Position numbers and translations under genes: made by a program
Assembly: GCF_000484535.1 (NCBI RefSeq)
Contig: NC_022600.1
Location: forward strand, 1,054,001 to 1,118,000
Length of the DNA stretch: 64,000 nucleotides
Direction of reading: 5' to 3'
From: Gloeobacter kilaueensis JS1
GTDB lineage: Bacteria > Cyanobacteriota > Cyanobacteriia > Gloeobacterales > Gloeobacteraceae
The notes under the pieces: generated by a model
Told to the model about the DNA's origin: nothing
What the model saw: the letters and a program-made list of their open reading frames with translations, nothing else
The model's database searches: none
Part shown: one piece after another, positions 3,286 through 16,584 of the stretch
Layout of the letters: every line of letters starts with the position of its first letter
Position numbering within the stretch: position 1 is the stretch's first letter

Positions 3286-5664
3286 ATGGCACAACTTGCA
3301 GATCTGGCGGCGGAGACGCGCGGGCTACTGGGCTGGCCCCGGCTGTGTGCGCACCTGGCTACCTTTGCCCAGACGAAGGCGGCCCGGCGCGCCTGTGAGG
3401 AGCTGTTGCCCTTTTTAAAAATAAGCGAAGCCGAGTTGTGGCTGGAGCGCACCGCCGAGGCGATCGATCTGAGCGAGACGCTGCCGGGGGGCCTCAGCTT
3501 CGAGGGCGTCCACGATATTGCCGGTGACATCGATCGCGCCGAGCGGGGGGGCATGTTGAGCGGTGAGCGGTTGCTGGCCCTCGCCTCCACCCTCGCTACT
3601 GCCCGCCGGTTGCGCCGCACGATCGACGATCGGGCTGAACGGGTACTGCAACTGGCTTTGCTCGTGGGCGATCTGCGCACCTTTCCTGAAATTGAGCAGG
3701 AGATCTACCGCTGTATCGATGACACAGGCGAGGTGGCCGACCGGGCAAGCGAAAAGCTCGGTAACCTGCGCTCCGCCCACAAGCGCCTGCGCAGCGAGAT
3801 CCAGCGCGATTTGCTGCAGCTTTTGCAGCGGCGGGCCAGTGCCTTTCAAGAACAGCTCATCACCCAGCGCGGCGAGCGCTTCGTGCTGCCACTCAAAGTC
3901 ACCCACCGCGACTCGGTGTCGGGCATCGTCCACGACTCCTCCGCCAGTGGCCAGACGCTCTACATCGAACCGATGGCCGTCGTCGAGACCACCAACCGCC
4001 TCATCGAAGGGATGCGCGCCGAGCAGGTCGAGGTCGAACGCATTTTGCTCGCGCTTTCTGCCCGCGTCGGTGAATCGGCCCCGGAGCTTGCTCACCTCCA
4101 TCAGGTGCTCACCGAGCTGGATCTGGCCGCGACCCGCGCCCGCTACGCCCTCTGGCTTAAAGCAGTGCGCCCGAATCTGGGCGCAGATAATTGCGAGCTT
4201 GCCGGTGTGCGCCATCCGCTACTGGTCTGGCAGGAGCGCCACGAGCAGGGGGTGCCGGTGGTGCCCGTCGATCTGCCAATTCCAGGCAGCGTGCGGGCAG
4301 TGGTGATCACCGGTCCCAATACCGGCGGCAAGACCGTTACCCTCAAGACCCTGGGACTGGCGGTGCTGATGGCCCAGGCGGGACTATTCGTACCGGCCCG
4401 CGATCCGGCGGCCCTGCCCTGGTTCGATTCGATCCTCGCCGACATCGGCGACGAGCAATCGATTGAGCAAAATCTTTCGACCTTCTCGGGCCACATCCGC
4501 CGGATCGTGCGCATCTTAGAAGCGATGGACGCAGGTTCGCTGGTGCTCCTCGACGAGGTGGGTGCCGGCACCGATCCGCAAGAAGGAGCCGCCCTCGCCC
4601 GCGCCCTGCTTGTCGAACTGGCGGCGCGGGTGCGTCTGGTGCTTGCCACCACCCACTACGGCGAATTGAAGGCGCTCAAGTACACCCACGCGCACTTCGA
4701 GAACGCTTCGGTCGAATTCGATCTGGCGAGCCTCGCTCCCACCTACCGCCTGCTCTGGGGCATTCCTGGCCGCTCGAACGCCCTTACGATCGCTGCCCGC
4801 CTGGGCCTCGATCTGCAGGTTATCGACGCGGCCCAGTCGAGCCTGAGCGAGAGTGACATCGAACTCGATCAGGTGATCGCCGCCCTGCAGCGACAGGTGC
4901 AGGACCAGCAGGTGCAGGTCGATTCCGCTACTCGTCTGCGCGCCGAACTCGAGCGCCAACAGTCGGATCTGATCCGTCAGCAAGCGGCCCTCGACCAGCG
5001 CGAGGTGCAGTTGCGCGAGCGCCAGGACCGGCAGGTGGCCGAGATCGTCTCCCAGGCCCGCTCCGAAGTGGCACGGGTGATTCGCGAGTTGCAGCGCGGC
5101 AATGCCACCGCTCAGCAGGCCCAGCAGGCGAGTGCTGCCCTCCAGGACATTGCTGAAAATTACCAGAGCAAACCGCCCGAGCCGCCCGCCGCTTACCGGC
5201 CCCAGCTGGGCGATCGGGTCGAGATTCTTTCTCTAGGTCAGAGCGGGGAAGTTGTGAGCCTCCAGGACGACGGCCAGGTGGTGCGCGTGCAGGTGGGCGT
5301 GCTCAAGCTCACCGTTCCTGTAAGCCAGTTGCGTCCTCCCGGCAGCCCCCGCCCCAAGCTCCCTGCCCGTTCTCAACCTGTCGAGCCGCCCCGTCCCCCT
5401 GCCCCTGCCAACCCTGAACCCCTGGTGCGCACCGAAGCCCAGACCATCGACCTGCGCGGACGGCGCGTCGCCGAGGCGGAAGCGCTGCTGGAGCCGGAAC
5501 TGAACCGCCAGCGCGGACCTCTCTGGATCATCCACGGTCACGGCACCGGCAAACTACGCGACGGCGTCCACGAAATTCTGGGGCGTCACCCGCGCGTTGC
5601 CCGCTTCGAGTTCGCTGATCGCGCCGACGGCGGCAACGGCGTCACCGTCGCCTTCTTAAAGTAG
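3286..5664 (+). CDS. mutS2: Endonuclease MutS2
   Basis: This 792-residue protein has the MutS2 layout. An N-terminal clamp region is followed by an ATPase with Walker A ITGPNTGGKTVTLKTLG near residue 340, a signature region SIEQNLSTFSGH and Walker B LVLLDEVGAGTDPQEG. A coiled-coil stretch rich in Gln and Arg follows, and the protein ends in a Smr nuclease domain (IDLRGRRVAEAEALL and IIHGHGTGKLRDGV). MutS2 suppresses homologous recombination and, in some bacteria, acts on collided ribosomes. The gene is divergent from the tetR-type regulator and followed by tRNA-Thr. Confidence 0.95.
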   Translation: MAQLADLAAETRGLLGWPRLCAHLATFAQTKAARRACEELLPFLKISEAELWLERTAEAIDLSETLPGGLSFEGVHDIAGDIDRAERGGMLSGERLLALASTLATARRLRRTIDDRAERVLQLALLVGDLRTFPEIEQEIYRCIDDTGEVADRASEKLGNLRSAHKRLRSEIQRDLLQLLQRRASAFQEQLITQRGERFVLPLKVTHRDSVSGIVHDSSASGQTLYIEPMAVVETTNRLIEGMRAEQVEVERILLALSARVGESAPELAHLHQVLTELDLAATRARYALWLKAVRPNLGADNCELAGVRHPLLVWQERHEQGVPVVPVDLPIPGSVRAVVITGPNTGGKTVTLKTLGLAVLMAQAGLFVPARDPAALPWFDSILADIGDEQSIEQNLSTFSGHIRRIVRILEAMDAGSLVLLDEVGAGTDPQEGAALARALLVELAARVRLVLATTHYGELKALKYTHAHFENASVEFDLASLAPTYRLLWGIPGRSNALTIAARLGLDLQVIDAAQSSLSESDIELDQVIAALQRQVQDQQVQVDSATRLRAELERQQSDLIRQQAALDQREVQLRERQDRQVAEIVSQARSEVARVIRELQRGNATAQQAQQASAALQDIAENYQSKPPEPPAAYRPQLGDRVEILSLGQSGEVVSLQDDGQVVRVQVGVLKLTVPVSQLRPPGSPRPKLPARSQPVEPPRPPAPANPEPLVRTEAQTIDLRGRRVAEAEALLEPELNRQRGPLWIIHGHGTGKLRDGVHEILGRHPRVARFEFADRADGGNGVTVAFLK

Positions 5665-5718: not shown

Positions 5719-5790
5719 GCCGATGTGGCGCAGTGGTAGCGCATTCGATTCGTAATCGAACGGTCGCGAGTTCGAATCTCGCCATCGGCT
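5719..5790 (+). tRNA. tRNA-Thr (CGT anticodon)
   Basis: A 72-base cloverleaf can be drawn. The acceptor GCCGATG pairs with CATCGGC, a five-pair anticodon stem encloses the loop TTCGTAA (anticodon CGT), and the T arm contains GTTCGAAT. CCA is not encoded. A partial copy of the anticodon arm and T-stem lies about 2 kb downstream (7737-7770), suggesting this tRNA served as an integration site. Confidence 0.95.
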
Positions 5791-5921
5791 TTACAAGTAG
5801 CGCCAGAAAGCTCTTTCCGGTATCACGGTGTGCAATCTGCTCCTGAGCCTTTGATTGGTACAGTAGGTTGTCACCCCAACTGGCATATAGTCTTCCTTGA
5901 AGTAAAGCCATCACTTACGGG

Positions 5922-6153
5922 AACCTTAAGAGCCAGGGCTTTTTCGTTCTCCGCAAGATTGGTTATGCTTAACTCGTTAACCTATCTGGCGCAGAGTCCA
6001 CTCTAGAAGGGTACTCTGCACATTCTCAACTGAGAAAAAAACCTACTGACCTTATGATTTATACTGTTGATGGTGGTCTTGGTGAAGCTGCGGCTACAGC
6101 TTGGTTTCAGCAAATCGACGCTCCAGAATGAAAAAGCCCTGCCTTAAGAGCTT
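5922..6153. mobile_element. MITE-like element with imperfect terminal inverted repeats
   Basis: A 232-base segment is bounded by about 28-base imperfect inverted repeats. The left arm (5922-5949) contains CTTAAGAGCCAGGGCTTTTT and the right arm (6126-6153) contains AAAAAGCCCTGCCTTAAGAG. Inside there is only a 25-codon frame (6053-6130, starting MIYTVDGG) without recognisable homology, and a smaller hairpin near 5991-6020. The size, terminal repeats and lack of a transposase fit a non-autonomous miniature element. No clear target duplication was established. The rest of 5791-6276 shows no gene. Confidence 0.5.
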
Positions 6154-6276
6154 ACATAAATTCGATGAAATTGCTTCTCTATCCTTACCTTATTTAGCAG
6201 GTACTCCTTATGTGAAGGAGAGAGCATGTATAAGCACCCCCTGTGTTATCACTAAAGAGTTGAGTATTTCTTGAAC

Positions 6277-6645
6277 ATGGGCCAAAAGCTAATTCTTCGT
6301 GTCAAACATATAAACCGACTTGCTGTACATGAGGGTTTTACTCGCAAAAGCCCAAATGCTGGAGGGGGTCGAATCGAGCATGTTCGATTGCTTGACGACA
6401 ACTACAGACTTACAAATGAGACGGTTGACGTTGATGCTTCAAATCTTGAAGTCCTATCTCCCCAACCGTACGAATCCCAACCTGATAAGCGGCAGTTGCC
6501 GGAGCAGAAGCCATTTTCCAGCGCTGTAGAACCTTCCACCGGAAGGTTGACACTTCTAGCAGAGTGGGGCGGCAGTCTTGACTTCCTTCGCGACGAACCG
6601 GATCTGTACAGCCTGGAAGATGGGGAAGCCCTCCATGGTGAGTAA
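6277..6645 (+). CDS. Putative antitoxin of MazF/PemK toxin (hypothetical)
   Basis: This is a 122-residue protein from the ATG at 6277; a TTG two codons earlier is also possible. Its 3' end overlaps the toxin gene by 11 bases, the usual antitoxin-toxin arrangement. The C-terminal segment (AEWGGSLDFLRDEPDLYSLE) is acidic and resembles the short tails that antitoxins use to bind MazF-type toxins. The N-terminal part is basic and could bind DNA, but I cannot name the fold. Base composition is more AT-rich than the flanking housekeeping genes, consistent with transfer. Confidence 0.6.
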   Translation: MGQKLILRVKHINRLAVHEGFTRKSPNAGGGRIEHVRLLDDNYRLTNETVDVDASNLEVLSPQPYESQPDKRQLPEQKPFSSAVEPSTGRLTLLAEWGGSLDFLRDEPDLYSLEDGEALHGE

Positions 6646-6976
6646 AGGGGATATCGTTCTCGTACCTTTCCCCTTCACCGACTTGAGCCAGACAAAAGTG
6701 CGACCGGCAGTGACACTCTGGAGCGACGTTGCAGGGGCTGACGTTCTGCTCTGTTTCATAACCTCCCAGCCTGGTGATCCTCTAGCCTTTGAACTATTGC
6801 TCGATCCACAAGATTCAGAGTTTCCTCTTACTGGTCTGCAGGTACGTTCGCGGCTGCGAGTAACGCGCATGGCGACAATTGAGCGCCGCCTGCTACGCCG
6901 CCGGTTGGGCAAGTTGGGAGAACAGATGTTGCAAAGACTGGATGCTAGCCTAAAGCAGGCTTTGCAACTGTCTTAA
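6635..6976 (+). CDS. Type II toxin, PemK/MazF family endoribonuclease
   Basis: The 113-residue protein begins MVSKGDIVLVPFPFTDLSQT and continues with KVRPAVTL, the conserved N-terminal strand-loop region of PemK/MazF toxins. MazF-type toxins are small ribonucleases that cut mRNA at short motifs and are neutralised by a cognate antitoxin. The ATG at 6635 is chosen because it begins the conserved domain and overlaps the antitoxin by 11 bases. The pair lies inside the segment bounded by tRNA-Thr and its partial repeat. Confidence 0.85.
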   Translation: MVSKGDIVLVPFPFTDLSQTKVRPAVTLWSDVAGADVLLCFITSQPGDPLAFELLLDPQDSEFPLTGLQVRSRLRVTRMATIERRLLRRRLGKLGEQMLQRLDASLKQALQLS

Positions 6977-7000
6977 ACGTACTAAAAGCATTACTATTAA

Positions 7001-7651
7001 TTACTCAGCATCAAGACCCAGTTGGCGCAGGCGCTCCGCTAAGCGGTCAGCCCGTTCTCGTTCTCGCTCTGCCCGTTCTCGCTCTTGTTCGGCTCTAGCG
7101 GCAATCTCGCTATAACTTTCAAAGCGCGCACCGTCCGGTCGCCAGAGTTGTAGTTCTTCCCCGCTCAACTCGAAGCGCACCCCTAGGCGCGGGCTGACCC
7201 AGCCCATCATCTCCACCGCTTCGAGATTCTCGCCACGGCGGAGGTAGCCGTTGAGCGTCCCTTCGTCCGGATCATAGACGTAGTACTCCTCGATGCCGTA
7301 GCGCTGATAGAAAGCAAACTTGCGCGTGATCTCAGCCACCCGGTTACCGGGGGAGAGCACCTCGAAGACGACCTGGGGAGCGATTCCGCCCTCCTCCCAC
7401 TGCCGGTAGCTGCCTCGATCGCCTTTGGGACGACCGAAGGCGACCAGGACATCGGGACCGATGCGGGTCTTGTTGTCGCCCTCGATCGGATACCACAGCA
7501 GGTCACCAGCAACGAACACATTCGGATCGGCAGCGAGGAGCCATTCCAGCCCTTCTTTGATATAGACAATCAGGCGGAACTGCTTTGTGTTGTCGGACAT
7601 GGGCATGCCATCCGAGTCAGGGTAGTGAACCGCCTGTGTGTAGAGGACCAT
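7001..7651 (-). CDS. Uma2 family putative restriction endonuclease (DUF820)
   Basis: The 216-residue protein has the Uma2/DUF820 PD-(D/E)XK pattern seen in huge numbers in cyanobacteria. Landmarks are IGPDVLVAFGRPKGDRGSY, VVFEVLSPGNRVAEITRKF, YQRYGIEEYYVYDPDEG and a C-terminal coiled coil rich in RAEQERERAERERERA. The acidic-x-lysine active-site elements (D of GPDV, E of FEVLSP, K of TRKF) are present. Function in the cell is not established for this family. It lies inside the small tRNA-bounded island with the toxin-antitoxin pair. Confidence 0.85.
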   Translation of the reverse strand: MVLYTQAVHYPDSDGMPMSDNTKQFRLIVYIKEGLEWLLAADPNVFVAGDLLWYPIEGDNKTRIGPDVLVAFGRPKGDRGSYRQWEEGGIAPQVVFEVLSPGNRVAEITRKFAFYQRYGIEEYYVYDPDEGTLNGYLRRGENLEAVEMMGWVSPRLGVRFELSGEELQLWRPDGARFESYSEIAARAEQERERAERERERADRLAERLRQLGLDAE

Positions 7652-7736
7652 GCTGCGCTGTTAAGCCTATGTACCATCGATGATAACAACCACTCAGCAT
7701 CAATCTTGTCGAAAGGCATTACGCTCTTCCCGCTGC

Positions 7737-7770
7737 GATTCGTAACCGAACGGTCGCAAGTCGTAATTCC
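7737..7770 (+). repeat. Partial direct repeat of tRNA-Thr (possible attachment-site relic)
   Basis: Bases 7737-7760 match 22 of 24 positions of the anticodon arm/variable region of the tRNA-Thr gene at 5747-5770 (core GATTCGTAA-CGAACGGTCGC). A looser match with an indel continues into the T arm to about 7770. The two are in direct orientation about 2 kb apart, as expected for attL/attR left by tRNA-targeting integration. The copy cannot fold as a tRNA, and no integrase is found between the repeats. Confidence 0.6.
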
Positions 7771-7914
7771 GGGTTCGGGTTCCCTGCGATTGTGCTCGAT
7801 GGTCCAAACGTCTTCTACCTGCACCCTCTCTGGCTTAGCGAGTGCAACAACTATTTGGCGAGCACGTCAAAATGGATCCGACAGAGCGTTCACAAGACAG
7901 GGGAGATAAAAGAT

Positions 7915-8946
7915 ATGGGCGGACAGGAGTTAGCGGCAACTGCCAGAGCAATGGTTGCTCCCGGCAAAGGGCTTCTGGCAGCAGACGAAAGTTACGACAC
8001 GGCAAACCGGCGCTTTGAGAAGCTGGGCATTGCGACGACTGCTGAGATGCGGCGGGCCTACCGCGAAATGCTCTTTACGACCCCCAGCATCGGTGACTTT
8101 CTCAGCGGCGTGATTTTATTCGATGAGACGATTCGCCAATCGACAAAAGACGGTACGCCCTTTATCAAAGTTCTGCAGGACGCCGGTATCATTCCGGGCA
8201 TCAAGCTGGACGCGGGGGCAAAGCCGCTCGCCAAAGCGCCGAGTGAACTGGTGAGCGAAGGTCTCGATGGCCTGCGCGACCGCATCGCTGAGTACTACAA
8301 GCTGGGTGCCCGCTTCGCCAAGTGGCGGGGGGTGATCACGATCGGCGACGGCATTCCGTCCAACCGCTGCATCAAGACCAACGCCCACGCCCTCGCCCGC
8401 TACGCCGCCCTCTGTCAAGAAGGCGGCCTGGTTCCGATCATCGAGCCGGAGGTTTTGATCGACGGCGATCACACCCTCGAGCGCAGCTACGCTGTCCACC
8501 ACGAAGTGCTCAAGGCGGTATTCGACGAACTCTACATCCAGGGCATCGAGCCGGAGCAGATGATTCTCAAACCGAGTATGGTCCTACCCGGCAAAAAAAG
8601 CCCCCAGCAGGCGAGCGTCGAGGAGGTGGCGCGCTTTACGGTAAAGTGCCTCAAGGAGCGCGTTCCGGCTGCCGTTCCTGGCTGCGCCTTTCTCTCCGGT
8701 GGCCAGAGCGACGAGGACGCCACCGCTCATCTCAATGCCATGAATGCGCTGTTTAAAGATGAGCTGCCGTGGCGGCTGACCTTTTCCTACAGCCGCGCCC
8801 TTCAGCAAACCGCCATGCAGATCTGGAACGGACGGGAAGAAAACGTCGCGGCGGCGCAAAAAGAACTGTACCGTCGCGCCAGGCTCAACAGCGCCGCCTC
8901 CCTGGGGCAGTATCGGCCTGAAACGGAAAAAGCCACTGCTGTGTAA
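7915..8946 (+). CDS. Class I fructose-bisphosphate aldolase
   Basis: This 343-residue protein starts at the ATG at 7915, preceded by an AGGGGAG ribosome site; upstream in-frame codons are not homologous. It has the class I aldolase N-terminus (GKGLLAADESYDTANRRFEK) and the Schiff-base lysine motif MILKPSMVLPGKKS near residue 219. Further family motifs are WRGVITIGDG, EPEVLIDGDH, FLSGGQSDEDA and the C-terminal SYSRALQQ. The enzyme interconverts fructose-1,6-bisphosphate and triose phosphates in glycolysis and the Calvin cycle without a metal. The gene appears monocistronic. Confidence 0.95.
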   Translation: MGGQELAATARAMVAPGKGLLAADESYDTANRRFEKLGIATTAEMRRAYREMLFTTPSIGDFLSGVILFDETIRQSTKDGTPFIKVLQDAGIIPGIKLDAGAKPLAKAPSELVSEGLDGLRDRIAEYYKLGARFAKWRGVITIGDGIPSNRCIKTNAHALARYAALCQEGGLVPIIEPEVLIDGDHTLERSYAVHHEVLKAVFDELYIQGIEPEQMILKPSMVLPGKKSPQQASVEEVARFTVKCLKERVPAAVPGCAFLSGGQSDEDATAHLNAMNALFKDELPWRLTFSYSRALQQTAMQIWNGREENVAAAQKELYRRARLNSAASLGQYRPETEKATAV

Positions 8947-8962: not shown

Positions 8963-8991
8963 GCCGCCCTCAGCTCAGGCTGCAGGGCGGC
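8963..8991. terminator. Hairpin between convergent genes
   Basis: GCCGCCCT at 8963-8970 pairs with AGGGCGGC ending at 8991, with a 13-base loop. There is no strong T-run, so it may act as a weak bidirectional terminator between the aldolase gene and the convergent gene at 9003. Confidence 0.4.
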
Positions 8992-9002
8992 TTGAAAGTC
9001 GG

Positions 9003-9332
9003 CTAGGCTGCGAAGTCTTCCTTGCTCGACTTGGTGAGCAGCTCGCTCAGCTTTTCGAGCTTCTCGCTGGTGCTCGAATCGATCTTGGCGGCAACCTTCT
9101 TGGTTTCCTTGCCGAGTCGGGCCAGCAGCTTGCCGACGGCCTTGCCATCGACTTCATCCGATTTGAGGATGCCCTCGAGCTTCTCAAGATCGGCAGCAAT
9201 CGGCTCATAGTCTGGGCCGGCCTCAGCTAGATCCTTGCGCCAGGCTTCGATATTGCGCGTGGCCTTACCGACTGTAAGGGAAGTGATTTTCTCCTGGAAT
9301 GCAGCGAGCGTGGTGTCGAGTTTTGTAGACAT
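9003..9332 (-). CDS. Small helical hypothetical protein
   Basis: From the ATG at 9332 (MSTKLDTTLAAFQEKI) the product is 109 residues. It is rich in Lys, Glu, Ala and Leu, with predicted continuous amphipathic helices and no membrane segment. I do not recognise a family. The even distribution of charged residues and segments such as LEKLEGILKSDEVDGKAVG suggest a soluble helical bundle. It is convergent with the aldolase gene and appears monocistronic. Confidence 0.7.
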   Translation of the reverse strand: MSTKLDTTLAAFQEKITSLTVGKATRNIEAWRKDLAEAGPDYEPIAADLEKLEGILKSDEVDGKAVGKLLARLGKETKKVAAKIDSSTSEKLEKLSELLTKSSKEDFAA

Positions 9333-9534
9333 AGTGCTTACTCTCATAAACAACATGGGCAGCGGGCAAATCCGGCAGATGGAGGCTGGCGATGTTCCCT
9401 TCTGCCCGTCCCACCGTCTCCCCAGCTAAGGGCGCATTCGCTGTATCCGAGGTCAGAAGTCTACTTTCTATCTTTGTGGGGACGTTTTTTAGAGGGATAT
9501 GGGTGGACCGGCAGGCAAAAAGCCGAGCCGAAGT

Positions 9535-10446
9535 TTATGGCCGTGTTCCTGGGCCAAACTCGCCTTTGCTCACCAGCACCACCCGACCGCCGACGCGAAT
9601 GGCTGTCAGTTGCCCATCCTGCAGGTCGTACTGGAGGTTGAGAAAACTTGGACGACCCATCTCGACGCCCTGCTCGACGAGGTAAGAGCAGGTACCGTGG
9701 ACGAGAGGATCTTCCAGTGCCAGGTAACCAGCTAGAGCGGTGACGGCTGAACCGGTGGCAGGATCCTCCAGCACACCGACGCTGGGGGCAAACATGCGCG
9801 CCCGCAGGTAATCGGCCCGCTCCGGGTCCGCTCCGACGACAAAAGCAAAGATCATCGAGGCCCAGGCACCGCCCAGCACCCGTTGCCACTGGGTCAGCTC
9901 GAGGCGGATGCGACCGAGGGCGTCCAGGTTCGTGATCGGCACAAACAAAAACGGAACGCCGCAGGAGATTGCCCGTGCGGGAGCGGCAATTGCCCTCGTC
10001 TCCAGCGAAAGCACAGCGGCAAGATCGGCGGCGGCGGGCGGCTCGGGACCATACTCGGGCATCTGAGCCGCACTGAGCGTACAGCTTACAGGCTGACTGT
10101 TCCGGGCTTCGACAGTTACCGGCACCGGCCCGACCCCTTCTTCAAAAACAATTTCTGTCCGTTCGCCTGTCAGGGAAATGTCGCCGATGGCAGCCAGAAC
10201 AAAGGCGGTTCCGACAGTAGGATGTCCAGCGAAGGGCAACTCGACCTGGGGAGTGAAGATGCGCAGGCGGCGGGTGCCTCCCTGTTCGGGCGGCAGAACA
10301 AAGACCGTCTCAGAGAGATTGAACTCGCGGGCGATGTGCTGCATCTGCTCTGGATCGATGGCGCGGGCATCGGGAAAGACAGCCAAAGGGTTGCCCCCAA
10401 AGATCTGATCGGTGAAGACGTCGGCGGTGTAGTAGCGGTACGGCAT
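9535..10446 (-). CDS. PhzF family isomerase-like protein
   Basis: A 303-residue protein begins [20 protein letters not shown], the typical PhzF start. The conserved glutamate lies in [10 protein letters not shown], and [15 protein letters not shown] and [11 protein letters not shown] follow. PhzF proteins share the diaminopimelate epimerase fold; outside phenazine clusters their substrates are mostly unknown. No phenazine genes are nearby. A TTG two codons upstream could also start it. Length is normal for the family. Confidence 0.9.
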
Positions 10447-10522
10447 AGACAAAACGAAACGATAAGATTAGATGAAGTTGAGCGACGCTTATTGTAAAAA
10501 TATATAATATAAGCTTGCTTTT

Positions 10523-10639
10523 CTAGGTTGGCTTTTGCCCTCCAGTCAAGAGAAGTGCAACCGAAGCAATTACTCCTTTATGAGGCAAAGAAACCCCAGC
10601 CTTAAATTTAGGTACATATTTTTTGCGATCCTGTGTCAT
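10523..10639 (-). CDS. Candidate small protein (38 aa)
   Basis: A short minus-strand frame starts at an ATG (10639) preceded by AAGGAG at good spacing and encodes a basic 38-residue peptide starting MTQDRKKYVPKFKAG, with a hydrophobic middle (VIASVALLL). I do not recognise it. The ribosome site is the main support, since the frame is too short for statistics. It lies in an otherwise gene-free stretch. Confidence 0.4.
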   Translation of the reverse strand: MTQDRKKYVPKFKAGVSLPHKGVIASVALLLTGGQKPT

Positions 10640-10946
10640 GATCTGCTCCTTCTGAGGTTAGTGTAGCGGAGCAGGAACATAACTTAGCGGGCTGTCTAGC
10701 TTTCCAGGTCCACCTCCCTCATGAACAGCTGTCCAACTTAGACGTGAGCCAGCTCTACTTATGTCTTTAGATAAAATTTGGCCCTACCTATTTACATAGG
10801 TGAAGGCTAGATCACCCACCTAAGATCAAGGTCTTACAACCTTAATCGGTTCGCTGTAAAACCTTAGCCTGCCACTTGCAGCAAGGTTCTGACTTGCTAG
10901 CACAAGTCTAATTTGCACTTTCTCAAACATTGAGGGGACTACTTAC
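10640..10946. other. Intergenic region upstream of the membrane protein gene
   Basis: No gene is evident in these 307 bases. They are AT-richer than the neighbours and contain a perfect hairpin, ACCTAT-TTAC-ATAGGT, at 10786-10801. They presumably hold the promoter of the gene at 10947, though no convincing -35/-10 pair could be fixed. Confidence 0.5.
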
Positions 10947-11564
10947 ATGACTTACGCAGATCAGTCGGGACGCGTCGCCGGTGTTCCCGCCGCACCTACC
11001 ACTACCGAGGTTATTGAGTATCACGACCGGGTACGCTGGGGTCCAGTTCTGGCTGGCCTGGTTGTTGCACTTGGTACGCAACTCGTATTGAGTTCACTGG
11101 GTGCTGCCTTCGGCCTGAATGCGATTGCCAACTCCGGTGCACCGCGTTCAGATGCTGGTGATGTCGGGAGCGCCGTCGGTCTCTGGAGCATTATCTCGCT
11201 GTTTGCCTCGCTGTTCGTGGGCGGCTGGGTAACTGCCCGTACGAGTGGTCCAATCACTCGCAATGGTTCGCTGTTCAACGGTGCTATCTTGTGGGCAACG
11301 ACCCTGTCACTCGGTGCCTACTTACTGGCGAGCGGCGTCTCTGGTGCCCTGGGCGTGCTCGGCTCCAACCCTCAGTTGACCGGCCAGGCCCAGAATAATG
11401 TGCCGGCTGGCGTACAAGCTCCGACAGCGGAGCAGACCCGCAACGTCGCTGGTAACGCTGCAAAAGGCAGTTTGTCCTTCGCTGTCGGCTCGCTTCTGGG
11501 TCTGGCTGCTGCCCTGAGCGGTGCCTATGTAGGTGCCAAGCGCCGAATGATCGAAGAAGTATAA
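10947..11564 (+). CDS. Multi-pass membrane protein, function unknown
   Basis: This 205-residue protein has a short hydrophilic N-terminus and then four or so hydrophobic segments: VLAGLVVALGTQLVLSSLG, a long one around LWSIISLFASLFVGGWVTA, LWATTLSLGAYLLASGVSG and a C-terminal SLLGLAAALSGAYVGAKRR. The Gly/Ala/Ser-rich helices and basic C-terminus resemble small bacterial envelope proteins of unknown role. There is no catalytic motif. A ribosome site (GAGGGGAC) precedes the ATG. It appears monocistronic and is followed by transposon debris. Confidence 0.75.
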   Translation: MTYADQSGRVAGVPAAPTTTEVIEYHDRVRWGPVLAGLVVALGTQLVLSSLGAAFGLNAIANSGAPRSDAGDVGSAVGLWSIISLFASLFVGGWVTARTSGPITRNGSLFNGAILWATTLSLGAYLLASGVSGALGVLGSNPQLTGQAQNNVPAGVQAPTAEQTRNVAGNAAKGSLSFAVGSLLGLAAALSGAYVGAKRRMIEEV

Positions 11565-11744
11565 CCTGCCTCGTTCATTAGATTATCTTGGATTTCACAA
11601 CTCTGAAAGCGCCCCTCGCCTGGGCGTTTTTTGTGGCCTCTCCGGCTTTTTTTGGTCTTGACCCGTAAAACTGGACCACGGGAAACGCCGACAGGCGCAC
11701 AGGCTTCCTGCACAAGCTCTCGACACAGCTCCTCCGCAAGAACC

Positions 11745-11765
11745 ACCCCATTCGGGGGGCAGGCC
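11745..11765 (+). repeat. Small dispersed hairpin repeat, copy 1 (inside tnpB remnant)
   Basis: The copy contains CCCCATTCGGGGGGCAGG. It sits between codons for LLRKN and VVVVEDL of TnpB. Removing these 21 bases leaves the expected KNQVVVVEDL, so it is an in-frame insertion of 7 codons. It forms a CCCC/GGGG stem with ATTC loop and CAGG tail. Confidence 0.75.
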
Positions 11766-11813
11766 AAGTGGTGGTGGTCGAGGACTTGTGTGTGAAGGGG
11801 TTGGGACGGACCC

Positions 11814-11833
11814 CCCCATTCGGGAGGCAGGCC
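11814..11833 (+). repeat. Small dispersed hairpin repeat, copy 2 (inside tnpB remnant)
   Basis: The copy contains CCCCATTCGGGAGGCAGG. It separates VKGLGRT from LAKSFHDAG. Deleting 20 bases restores a single frame with an Arg codon at the junction, so this insertion caused the frameshift. One stem position (GGGA) is mismatched relative to the other copies. Confidence 0.72.
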
Positions 11834-12138
11834 GCTTGGCCAAATCGTTCCACGATGCAGGCTTTGGCAAGTTCCTGGCGATGCTTGAGGCGAAGGCTTT
11901 CACGTACGGACGGGAAGTGCTCAAAGTCGGCAGGTACTTCGCTTCTTCTCAAATCTGTTCTACTTGTGGGCACAAGGACGGACCGGAGCTGCTATGGGTG
12001 CGGCAGTGGACCTGTCCCCAGTGTCATAGCGAGCACGATAGGGACGAGAATGCAGCGAAGAACATCCTCGCCCAGGGACTCGGGGAGAGGTTAGGGCACC
12101 CTCCCGCATCCGCCACTGCGGAGAAGGAACCCGGATAA

Positions 12139-12264
12139 ACGCCTGGGTCGCCAGCGTAAGACCACTCGCAAGGGGGCAGCAGGCAGTGAAGCAGGAACCC
12201 GCCGGTCGGGGAGACAGCAATGTCTTGCTGAGAAGGAATCTCCGTCCTTCTAGGACGGGGAGGA
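12139..12264 (+). mobile_element. Right-end relic of the TnpB element (possible omega-RNA scaffold region)
   Basis: Directly after the tnpB remnant there is the characteristic right end of IS605/IS1341-type elements. A GC-rich stretch is followed by AATCTCCGTCCTTCTAGGAC with a CCGTCC/GGACGG hairpin at about 12242-12258. In intact elements this part is transcribed into the guide (omega) RNA used by TnpB. The rest of 12265-12551 shows no gene and would contain the hli promoter. Confidence 0.5.
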
Positions 12265-12551
12265 GGTCAAATCGAAGAGATAATGGCTAAACCAGCGTCA
12301 CTCTCACCTAAGAAACCATGCGAGTATGGTATTGCAAGTCCAGCGACACCTTCGCCCGCCATGTACTAAATAGGCAGAGTGCAACTATTCCACTAAAGTT
12401 GCCCTTGCAGCTAAGAAATGGTCGTCTTACTCACACCATTAATATTGCATCACCACTGGGTATGCCTTTATAGGGATAGACAACTAGCCGAGCCATCAAC
12501 TACGGTAGTAATGTAACGAACTGTTAAACACCATTTTCGAGGATGCTTGCT

Positions 12552-12731
12552 ATGGAAACCAATACACAAACCGAAATAAACGGACAAAATCGCAATGCAT
12601 GGCTTTTCGGTTTCACACCCCAGGCTGAAATCTGGAATGGTCGTCTAGCGATGATCGGCTTCGTCGCTTACTTACTCTGGGATTTAGCAGGTTACAGCGT
12701 CTTGCGCAACGTATTGCATCTTATTGGGTAA
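12552..12731 (+). CDS. High-light-inducible protein (one-helix CAB-like)
   Basis: A 59-residue protein starts METNTQTE and carries the chlorophyll-binding helix motif EIWNGRLAMIGFVAYLLWD, in which E and N/R form the CAB-type ligand pair. Hlips are single-helix membrane proteins that bind chlorophyll and carotenoid, and protect or help assemble photosystem II under stress. An ATG three codons upstream is an alternative. The gene stands alone between IS remnants on both sides, suggesting repeated insertion around it, but its own frame is intact. Confidence 0.93.
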   Translation: METNTQTEINGQNRNAWLFGFTPQAEIWNGRLAMIGFVAYLLWDLAGYSVLRNVLHLIG

Positions 12732-12833
12732 GTGGCTTTAGAGAAGCAGGGATTGAGTTATCAGAGCCTGAGCAAAGTGGGTCTGTCCAGTAACAGTGCT
12801 ATGGCTCATTCAATTTCACTAGCTCACCTCTAG

Positions 12834-12944
12834 CTAGATGGTTCTCTGATCTTCCCAATTGGGTTGACGTGTCAGCTCTGTTTCACAGATGATGTTGGTC
12901 TCGAACTCGATAGGTGACAAGTGTCCGATTGCTGGGTACGATCG
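12834..12944 (-). pseudogene. IS3-family transposase OrfB, C-terminal scrap
   Basis: On the minus strand RSYPAIGHLSPIEFE is followed by a hydrophilic tail and stop. This is the conserved end of IS3-type OrfB integrases (HSALGYLSPLEFE). Nothing upstream (to about 13129) continues the frame. The remainder of 12732-13129 is unassigned IS debris and promoter region for rpmG. Confidence 0.75.
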
Positions 12945-13129
12945 CTCCTGCTTGGAAACTTACTGGTTCCGTTGCAGGAAGTCTGATCTACTTGGCTGAG
13001 AGAGTACAGTCAACTCCACAGCCACCTGACGAGCAGGTTTCGGCTTCTTCCAGCTAAGCTCGTCGTGCATCCTGTGGGCAGATCGAGAGCGGAATGCGAA
13101 CCAGTGAGAGACCGTGCAAGGACTGGACA

Positions 13130-13330
13130 ATGGCAGCCATAGCGGAGCCAGCTGCTCGCCTCATTGTGAGTCTGGAGTCTGCCGAGTGCCAGACCAACGC
13201 CCTGCAAGCGTTCGCCCGGCGTCTCGCGCTACAGCACCAGCAAAACAAGTGCAACGCGACGAGGCGCATGGAACTCAAAAAGTTCTGCTCCCACTGCAAC
13301 AAGCACACCATACATCAAGAGATCAAATAG
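13130..13330 (+). CDS. rpmG: 50S ribosomal protein L33, with an internally frame-swapped segment
   Basis: The 66-residue frame has normal L33 length. It starts with a [13 protein letters not shown] segment (family pattern VTLECTECRT) and ends with an excellent L33 tail, [22 protein letters not shown] split here as [12 protein letters not shown] and [10 protein letters not shown]. The middle, however, only matches L33 in another frame: from 13203 that frame reads [15 protein letters not shown] +1 and a -1 change therefore appear to bracket about 15 codons. The first zinc-ligand Cys is Ser here. It is followed two bases later by rpsR. It is either a decaying copy or a diverged functional gene. 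Confidence 0.7.
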
Positions 13331-13332
13331 CG

Positions 13333-13554
13333 ATGGCCTATGGATATCGTGGCAAGCGGGTGTCGCCCATCCCGCCCAAGGACAAAATTGATTACAAAGA
13401 CGTGGACCTACTGCGCAAGTTCATCAGCGAGCGGGGCAAGATTCTACCCCGACGAGTCACCGGGCTTACTGCCAAGCAGCAGCGTGACCTGACTGTGGCG
13501 ATCAAGCGTGCTCGCATCCTCGCTCTATTGCCCTTCGTCAATCGAGCCGGCTAA
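13333..13554 (+). CDS. rpsR: 30S ribosomal protein S18
   Basis: This is a 73-residue protein with S18 hallmarks: [35 protein letters not shown] and [13 protein letters not shown]18 binds with S6 to the small-subunit platform. The start ATG lies two bases after the L33 stop, the usual cyanobacterial rpmG-rpsR pair. The gene looks intact, unlike its partner. It is followed by a nested hairpin. Confidence 0.95.
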
Positions 13555-13558
13555 AACC

Positions 13559-13625
13559 GCTCCTGGCTGTGGCCCTCCTAGCCTGCACTGCATTTTTATC
13601 CAGTGCGTTCGGCCATCCCAGGAGC
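13559..13625 (+). terminator. Nested hairpin after rpsR
   Basis: Three helices stack. GCTCCTGG (13559-13566) pairs with CCAGGAGC (13618-13625), TGGCC pairs with GGCCA, and GCACTG (13585-13590) pairs with CAGTGC (13601-13606). No T-run follows, so it may be a processing or stability element rather than a simple terminator. Nothing else is seen to 13800. Confidence 0.45.
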
Positions 13626-13800
13626 ATCCCGATCTGCCCATGGGATGAGCAACATGTTCACTCTATGAAATTTTAAGAAAATGGCCGCTTGATTTCGGCA
13701 ACTCTGGGCTCAAGCCAGCTTTTGATGAAGCGGGGTCTTCCTGGAATGGTCAAGTTGACTGGAGTGGCCACCGAGGACAAGCTTCTAGCACCGTGAAAAG

Positions 13801-14150
13801 ATGAGCAAAGCCGACTCCCTCTACTACCGTCATCGTTTCCCGCCAGAAATTATCTCCCACTGCGTCTGGTCCTATTTCCGATTCAATCTCGGCTACCGCG
13901 ATGTTGAGGAGATGATGGCCATGCGTTGCATCACCCTCACCTGCGAGACCGTTAGAGCTTGATGTCGCAAGTTCGCACAGACCTTCGCTAATCAAACCCG
14001 TCGCCGACGGCCAAAGCCCGGTGACAAGTGGCATCTGGACGAGATGGCCCTCAAGATCAACGGTCACACCTCCTATTTATGGCGGGCAGTGGATGGGGAT
14101 AGCACTATGCTCGACATCCTGGTATAGAAGCGGCGCAACGAGGCGGCGGA
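13801..14150 (+). pseudogene. IS6-family transposase remnant (N-terminal part, two internal stops)
   Basis: The frame from the ATG at 13801 reads YYRHRFPPEIISHCVW, YRDVEEMMAMR, then RRRRPKPGDKWHLDEMALKI and LWRAVDGDSTMLDILV, the N-terminal and DDE-core start of IS6/IS240 transposases. A TGA replaces a Trp codon (CETVRA-stop-CRKF) and a TAG replaces Gln after DILV. The sequence ends abruptly at about 14150 against an IS21 remnant on the opposite strand. Confidence 0.85.
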
Positions 14151-16179: not shown

Positions 16180-16584
16180 AGTTTATGGGATAAATTCTCG
16201 TTATTGATATCGCGATATAGCTATTTTTGTTTTACTTGCTTTAAAAGCAGCAAAGCTGCTGCTAAGTAAACGGAGATAATCAAACGTAAGATTGTCGATA
16301 GTTCAAATGCTTTCAAAGAGAAGATTTTAGCCTTATGCTCTATGCCCTTTCACGTTCTAGCTCCTTAGTAGCGAAGTAATTTTCAACCAACATCGAAAAG
16401 TTTCATAAGTAAGTAACCCTAAAGCTAAACTCGATTTCCCGAACCCAATACACAGTAAAGATCTGCCTCCCAGAACTTTCAGTTTTGTCATGTTCGCATA
16501 TTTATTGCAGTATGATTTCTCTGGGTCGAAGTGCTAAAGAAGTCGGAAGTAGTCTAGACTAGAGATTCATTAATCAGGCTTTTC
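16180..16584. other. Intergenic region upstream of the L25-like gene
   Basis: These 405 AT-rich bases show no gene. A small hairpin AGCAGC-AAA-GCTGCT lies near 16247-16262. The remainder presumably holds the promoter and leader of the ribosomal protein L25-type gene. Confidence 0.5.

Follow-up and report, generated by a model that had tools for sequence, protein, structure and literature searches.

A probable decayed footprint of tRNA-targeted integration at tRNA-Thr(CGT) in Gloeobacter kilaueensis

When a mobile element integrates into a tRNA gene, it leaves a regenerated gene and a displaced fragment of that gene, which together mark the ends of the element. The crossover sites lie in the anticodon or T-arm region, and the "A" subsite is the one centred on the anticodon. 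In the Islander approach, islands are recognised by an intact tRNA gene, a downstream 3' fragment in the same orientation that reaches the tRNA end, a tyrosine integrase, a length of 2-200 kb and no Pfam overlap. This outline follows the parts of PMC4383910 drawn on here. A literature search on cyanobacterial tRNA-Thr integrase islands with direct repeats returned archaeal work only, and nothing was found on tRNA-Thr integration in Gloeobacter.

A likely example of such a site, in worn form, occurs in Gloeobacter kilaueensis JS1. The window, meaning the whole stretch of DNA that was analysed, is 64 kb long and corresponds to 1,054,001-1,118,000 of the 4,724,791-bp single-contig genome (G000). 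Its relevant features, in window positions, are as follows.

3286-5664, plus strand: mutS2, upstream neighbour of tRNA-Thr(CGT) in G. kilaueensis, not beside the tRNA in the relatives G001-G003
5719-5790, plus strand: tRNA-Thr(CGT), intact (ARAGORN); proposed reconstituted target, attL side
5924-5933, no strand: left 10-bp target-site duplication of the MITE, CCTTAAGAGC
5934-6141, no strand: MITE of 208 bp, ISAs1-type, with terminal inverted repeats CAGGGCTTTTTC(G/A)TTCT
6142-6151, no strand: right 10-bp target-site duplication of the MITE, CCTTAAGAGC, a perfect match to the left copy
6271-6645, plus strand: 124-aa ORF, putative antitoxin by position only
6635-6976, plus strand: PemK/MazF-family toxin gene, PF02452 E=6.2e-13 (searched with 6644-6976); start placed at 6635 from the sequence
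7001-7651, minus strand: Uma2-family (putative nuclease) gene, PF05685 E=2.5e-17
7736-7761, plus strand: displaced 3' fragment of tRNA-Thr (nt 28-53), 24/26 identical; proposed degenerate attR core
7762-7783, plus strand: possible degenerate remainder of the fragment (nt 54-73), only weakly similar
7915-8946, plus strand: class I fructose-bisphosphate aldolase, PF00274 E=2.3e-134 (run on 7903-8946); a neighbour for which no island membership is claimed

The direct repeat pairs 5746-5771 with 7736-7761 on the same strand at a spacing of 1,990 bp. Between the two copies lie, in this order, the MITE, the 124-aa ORF with the overlapping toxin gene, and Uma2 on the opposite strand. The best reading of the stretch 5719-7783, with a probability of about 0.8, is that an integrative element had its attachment site in tRNA-Thr(CGT) and left this footprint, which has since decayed.

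Like the Islander-type islands, the locus has an intact tRNA gene followed by a 3' fragment in the same orientation that starts in the anticodon region. The fragment overlaps no Pfam domain, being placed between the end of Uma2 at 7651 and the aldolase domain. Its position, orientation and start thus fit an anticodon-region site. Unlike those islands, the locus has no integrase inside or overlapping it. Its length, 1.95 kb from tRNA to fragment or about 2.05 kb with both included, falls at the lower limit of the Islander range. The fragment is clear for 26 bp only, and an extension to the 3' end of the tRNA is not demonstrable. This counts against a footprint, as do the missing integrase and the ordinary base composition of Uma2. 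Because it lacks an integrase, the locus is classed not as an intact Islander member but as a remnant consistent with the mechanism.

In the proposed course of events, a tyrosine integrase would have carried out recombination between the att site of the element and the tRNA gene, close to the anticodon arm. The present gene would then owe its 3' part to the element, and the original 3' part would have been pushed out to 7736-7783 and have decayed there. Loss of the integrase and of most of the element's other genes would have followed, with the PemK/MazF toxin pair and the Uma2 gene either left behind or admitted later, and an ISAs1-type MITE would have inserted separately. The former presence or action of an integrase at 5719-7783, the cargo genes and the order of events are presumptive.

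The first-pass annotation had proposed tRNA-targeted integration, and comparison with other genomes strengthens that core reading. Across Gloeobacter, the 74 bp of tRNA-Thr(CGT) are identical in G001, G002 and G003, and each of G000-G003 has one exact copy per genome. The 5' flank of the gene is 91-97% alike in G001, G002 and G003, and the 3' flanks differ from each other. In the congener G003, a copy of nt 26-73 at 100% lies 3.2 kb downstream of tRNA-Thr(CGT) on the same strand. G001 is without this 3.2-kb stretch, and G003-like DNA resumes 208 bp after its tRNA.

The G003 interval resembles the G. kilaueensis locus in being short, in lying at the same tRNA and in having no convincing integrase match (tblastn; best E 0.073 over 25 residues). 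It differs in its perfect 48-bp repeat and in its gene content. Three ORFs were tested in it; one has a DUF4351 match, and the two larger ones are without a Pfam match.

A further tRNA 3' fragment was seen in G003 at L143:6511-6554 (G003:C1:4096510-4096553, minus strand), with no intact tRNA in the 10-kb locus. By eye, its anticodon arm reads like that of a Thr(GGT) tRNA, and it is possibly another att remnant.

With the 74-bp tRNA as query, a search across 146 genomes of the class found matches in at least 141, and the fragment counts from it are lower bounds. Among the matches listed, G015 and G074 have fragments starting at nt 27, in addition to those of G000 and G003. G015 has a fragment of nt 27-74 at 90%, located 13.5 kb downstream of its tRNA-Thr(CGT) on the same contig and in the same orientation. 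G074 has two fragments of nt 27-73 on contigs other than that of its integrase; the first is at the end of a contig and the second about 700 bp short of a contig end. Also among the matches listed, two G100 contigs end inside the tRNA and two G035 contigs begin inside it.

Both G015 and G074 have a tyrosine integrase directly 3' of tRNA-Thr(CGT). The G015 protein, 397 aa long, starts 178 bp after the tRNA, and its PF00589 match has E 7.4e-6 and 26.3 bits, slightly short of the 27.1-bit cut-off; it also has an Arm-DNA-bind_2 domain. The 379-aa protein of G074 starts 181 bp after the tRNA and matches at E 1.1e-8 (35.5 bits, above 27.1). The 13.5-kb element of G015 shares with the G. kilaueensis locus the same tRNA, the same orientation and nearly the same fragment start (nt 27 and nt 28), and differs in having its own integrase, about a dozen further ORFs and a 48-bp repeat at 90%. 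A third integrase relative (34.8 bits) is found on a G100 contig, at the end away from the tRNA fragment and oriented differently. This layout does not fit cleanly with those of G015 and G074. DUF3987 or VapE-like genes accompany these integrases, and the G015 contig has a DUF3987 gene.

Two side observations concern these elements. In G015 (L133:2661-2734 and 16229-16276), the distal fragment, compared by eye with the intact tRNA, differs on both sides of the T-stem in a pairing-compatible way. Such changes are expected if the element brought its 3' end from another host. In G074 (L134, L135, L136), the 3' flank of the intact tRNA recurs over about 47 bp behind one of the two tRNA-Thr fragments, an arrangement for which tandem elements or a circular form are possible.

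The integrases of G015, G074 and G100 align with 36-41% identity to the first. A homology scan of the genome contigs with this alignment found 19 related loci, 17 of which have a same-strand tRNA ending 143-355 bp before the match; without the query contigs L144 and L147 the proportion is 16/17. The tRNAs at the 17 loci are Cys (11), Pro (2), Thr(CGT), Thr(TGT), Gly and Arg (one each). The two loci without such a tRNA are L147, which is the G100 contig, and L162.

Nothing of this kind is left at the G. kilaueensis locus. The earlier statement that no integrase remains there agrees with the absence of any PF00589 match in the window. Likewise, tblastn with 22 integrase sequences found no remnant in the interval or the next 8 kb (E up to 0.1). 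Loss of the integrase by decay is the simplest account, and integration in trans is a possible one. Under the latter, the interval would be a non-autonomous cassette that never had its own integrase and was integrated by one encoded elsewhere, as the 3.2-kb interval of G003 might be. Short intervals without an integrase at the same tRNA in two Gloeobacter genomes would suit such a model. The perfect G003 repeat would also suit it, as it implies either that the integrase was lost there recently or that integration took place in trans.

G. kilaueensis does encode tRNA-associated integrases at other sites. One, of 380 aa, lies 151 bp after tRNA-Val(TAC) near 415 kb (L139:4262-5628) and aligns with all three query integrases at 27-32% identity (E 2.6e-27 to 5.8e-43). 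Another, of 373 aa, lies 227 bp after tRNA-Ser(GCT) near 812 kb (L140:4354-5795) and gave no alignment with the three queries at E 1. No distal repeat was seen for either within the 10-kb loci. An integrase specific for tRNA-Thr is what the trans model is missing, however, since none of the five PF00589 matches in the genome adjoins tRNA-Thr. No second copy of the cassette was found, and deletion of an integrase explains the G. kilaueensis locus equally well. Integration in trans is accordingly held to be unlikely for this interval. Its generalisation, in which small non-autonomous cassettes (2-3 kb, with nuclease-like genes and a toxin pair) are inserted in trans at the tRNA-Thr(CGT) gene of Gloeobacter by tRNA-specific integrases whose genes lie elsewhere, is quite doubtful. 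If true, the trans-inserted cassettes would form a minimal counterpart, at tRNA sites, to MITEs or integron cassettes.

A repeat of this sort might also arise by partial duplication of the tRNA gene through ordinary recombination or replication slippage, with no integration at all. The repeat is a fragment only and the integrase is absent, as such a duplication would have it. However, the first matching nucleotide of the fragment, nt 28, is no more than 1-2 nt from where the fragments of three other cyanobacteria (G003, G015 and G074) begin, and two of these genomes have an integrase beside the tRNA. Its orientation and position also obey the rule for tRNA integration given in PMC4383910. Partial duplication is for these reasons considered improbable.

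The repeat corresponds to the one first noticed as 22 matches in 24 bases, in direct orientation about 2 kb beyond the tRNA; the same block extends to 24/26. The tRNA and the distal segment align locally with a score of 42. The 26-bp match has a genome-wide E of 0.0019, a value that is small yet not negligible, and its closeness to the tRNA is what makes the match strong. Upstream of nt 28 the similarity is absent, as 3,636/5,000 shuffles do equally well there. The similarity over nt 54-73 is weak, being matched by 513/10,000 shuffles and by 1,694/63,970 window positions. The repeat block thus starts sharply in the anticodon stem, and its 3' end is uncertain. Chance resemblance of intergenic sequence to the tRNA, which the genome-wide E and the weak 3' extension leave a little room for, is hardly credible. 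Elsewhere in the 64-kb window, with both strands searched, the best score is 27, and 2,000 first-order Markov shuffles of the 2-kb region gave a maximum of 30, with 0 at 42 or above. Chance similarity at many other places, named at the outset as an argument against an island, is not what is found.

The element at 5934-6141 has the marks of an ISAs1-derived MITE, namely ISAs1-like terminal inverted repeats, a target duplication and no transposase. Two copies at 80% occur in G003. The same genome has an IS at G003:C3:1370-2523 with ends similar to those of the MITE, and its protein matches the ISAs1 transposase model at 104.4 bits (cut-off 70). As in this IS, the ends recur with one or two changes in numerous short G002 elements (44 end matches). 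Terminal inverted repeats and a 10-bp duplication are common to 5934-6141 and the ISAs1-family elements, that is, the G003:C3 IS and the short G002 repeat. The IS has a transposase and the MITE is without one, and the likeness is drawn from ends and target duplication. The ORFs overlapping the MITE, 5830-6006 and 6101-6274, have no Pfam match. Since its 10-bp target duplication is perfect and its ends recur in G003 and G002 elements, the MITE most likely transposed into this position separately from the integrative element.

The short G002 repeat is itself an ISAs1-type MITE of about 130 bp with ends CAGGGCTGTTTCATTCT. It is present in about two dozen copies, for instance in L126 around 1291-1421, and the one copy inspected has a 10-bp target duplication.

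The first-pass annotation had placed a MITE-like element, a MazF/PemK toxin-antitoxin pair and a Uma2 gene between the repeats, all described as AT-richer. The MITE, the toxin and Uma2 are present. The PemK-family toxin scores 49.3 bits against a curated cut-off of 23.1, and its gene overlaps the upstream 124-aa ORF by 11 bp. This ORF matched no Pfam or NCBIfam model, leaving the antitoxin half of the pair to be assigned by position.

The composition claim holds in part. The G+C content of 5791-7735 is 52.1%. Bins of equal size average 59.6% (s.d. 4.0), and 11/249 of them are as low. Within the interval, 5791-6270 is AT-richer (37.5-47.2% G+C) and the toxin pair less so (49.9 and 53.8%). Uma2, at 59.8%, equals the window average. 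It also has many paralogues in G. kilaueensis and throughout the genus, and it is therefore tied to the element by position alone. Joint arrival of everything between the repeats is not supported, the MITE with its 10-bp duplication being treated as a separate transposition. Orthology of this Uma2 gene with the one directly 3' of mutS2 in G001 was considered and rejected, as other G001 paralogues are closer (74-77% as against 70.5%) and the orientation is opposite.

The surroundings of the tRNA gene have changed as well. In G001 and G003 a long distance separates mutS2 from tRNA-Thr, in G002 the two genes are on separate contigs, and window positions 8990-14000 have only scattered matches that are not collinear with the relatives. 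The neighbourhood has thus been rearranged in G. kilaueensis. A simple inversion joining mutS2 to tRNA-Thr was looked for and could not be reconstructed. The class I aldolase has no match in the eight relatives G001-G008. With the aldolase missing there and the tRNA in another neighbourhood, the insertion is not directly comparable with an empty tRNA-aldolase junction. The aldolase at 7915-8946 was itself either gained in G. kilaueensis or lost in the relatives.

The locus would be a remnant of an ordinary, well-known kind of mobile element, and no new mechanism is predicted from it. Two stages may be seen at one attachment site, with a perfect repeat in G003 and a worn one in G. kilaueensis. 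By this reading, the tRNA-Thr(CGT) gene of Gloeobacter, a cyanobacterial lineage that branched early, joins the sites repeatedly used by tRNA-targeting integrases. The site would also be tied to an integrase group that, in other cyanobacteria, sits immediately 3' of tRNAs for Thr, Cys, Pro, Gly and Arg.
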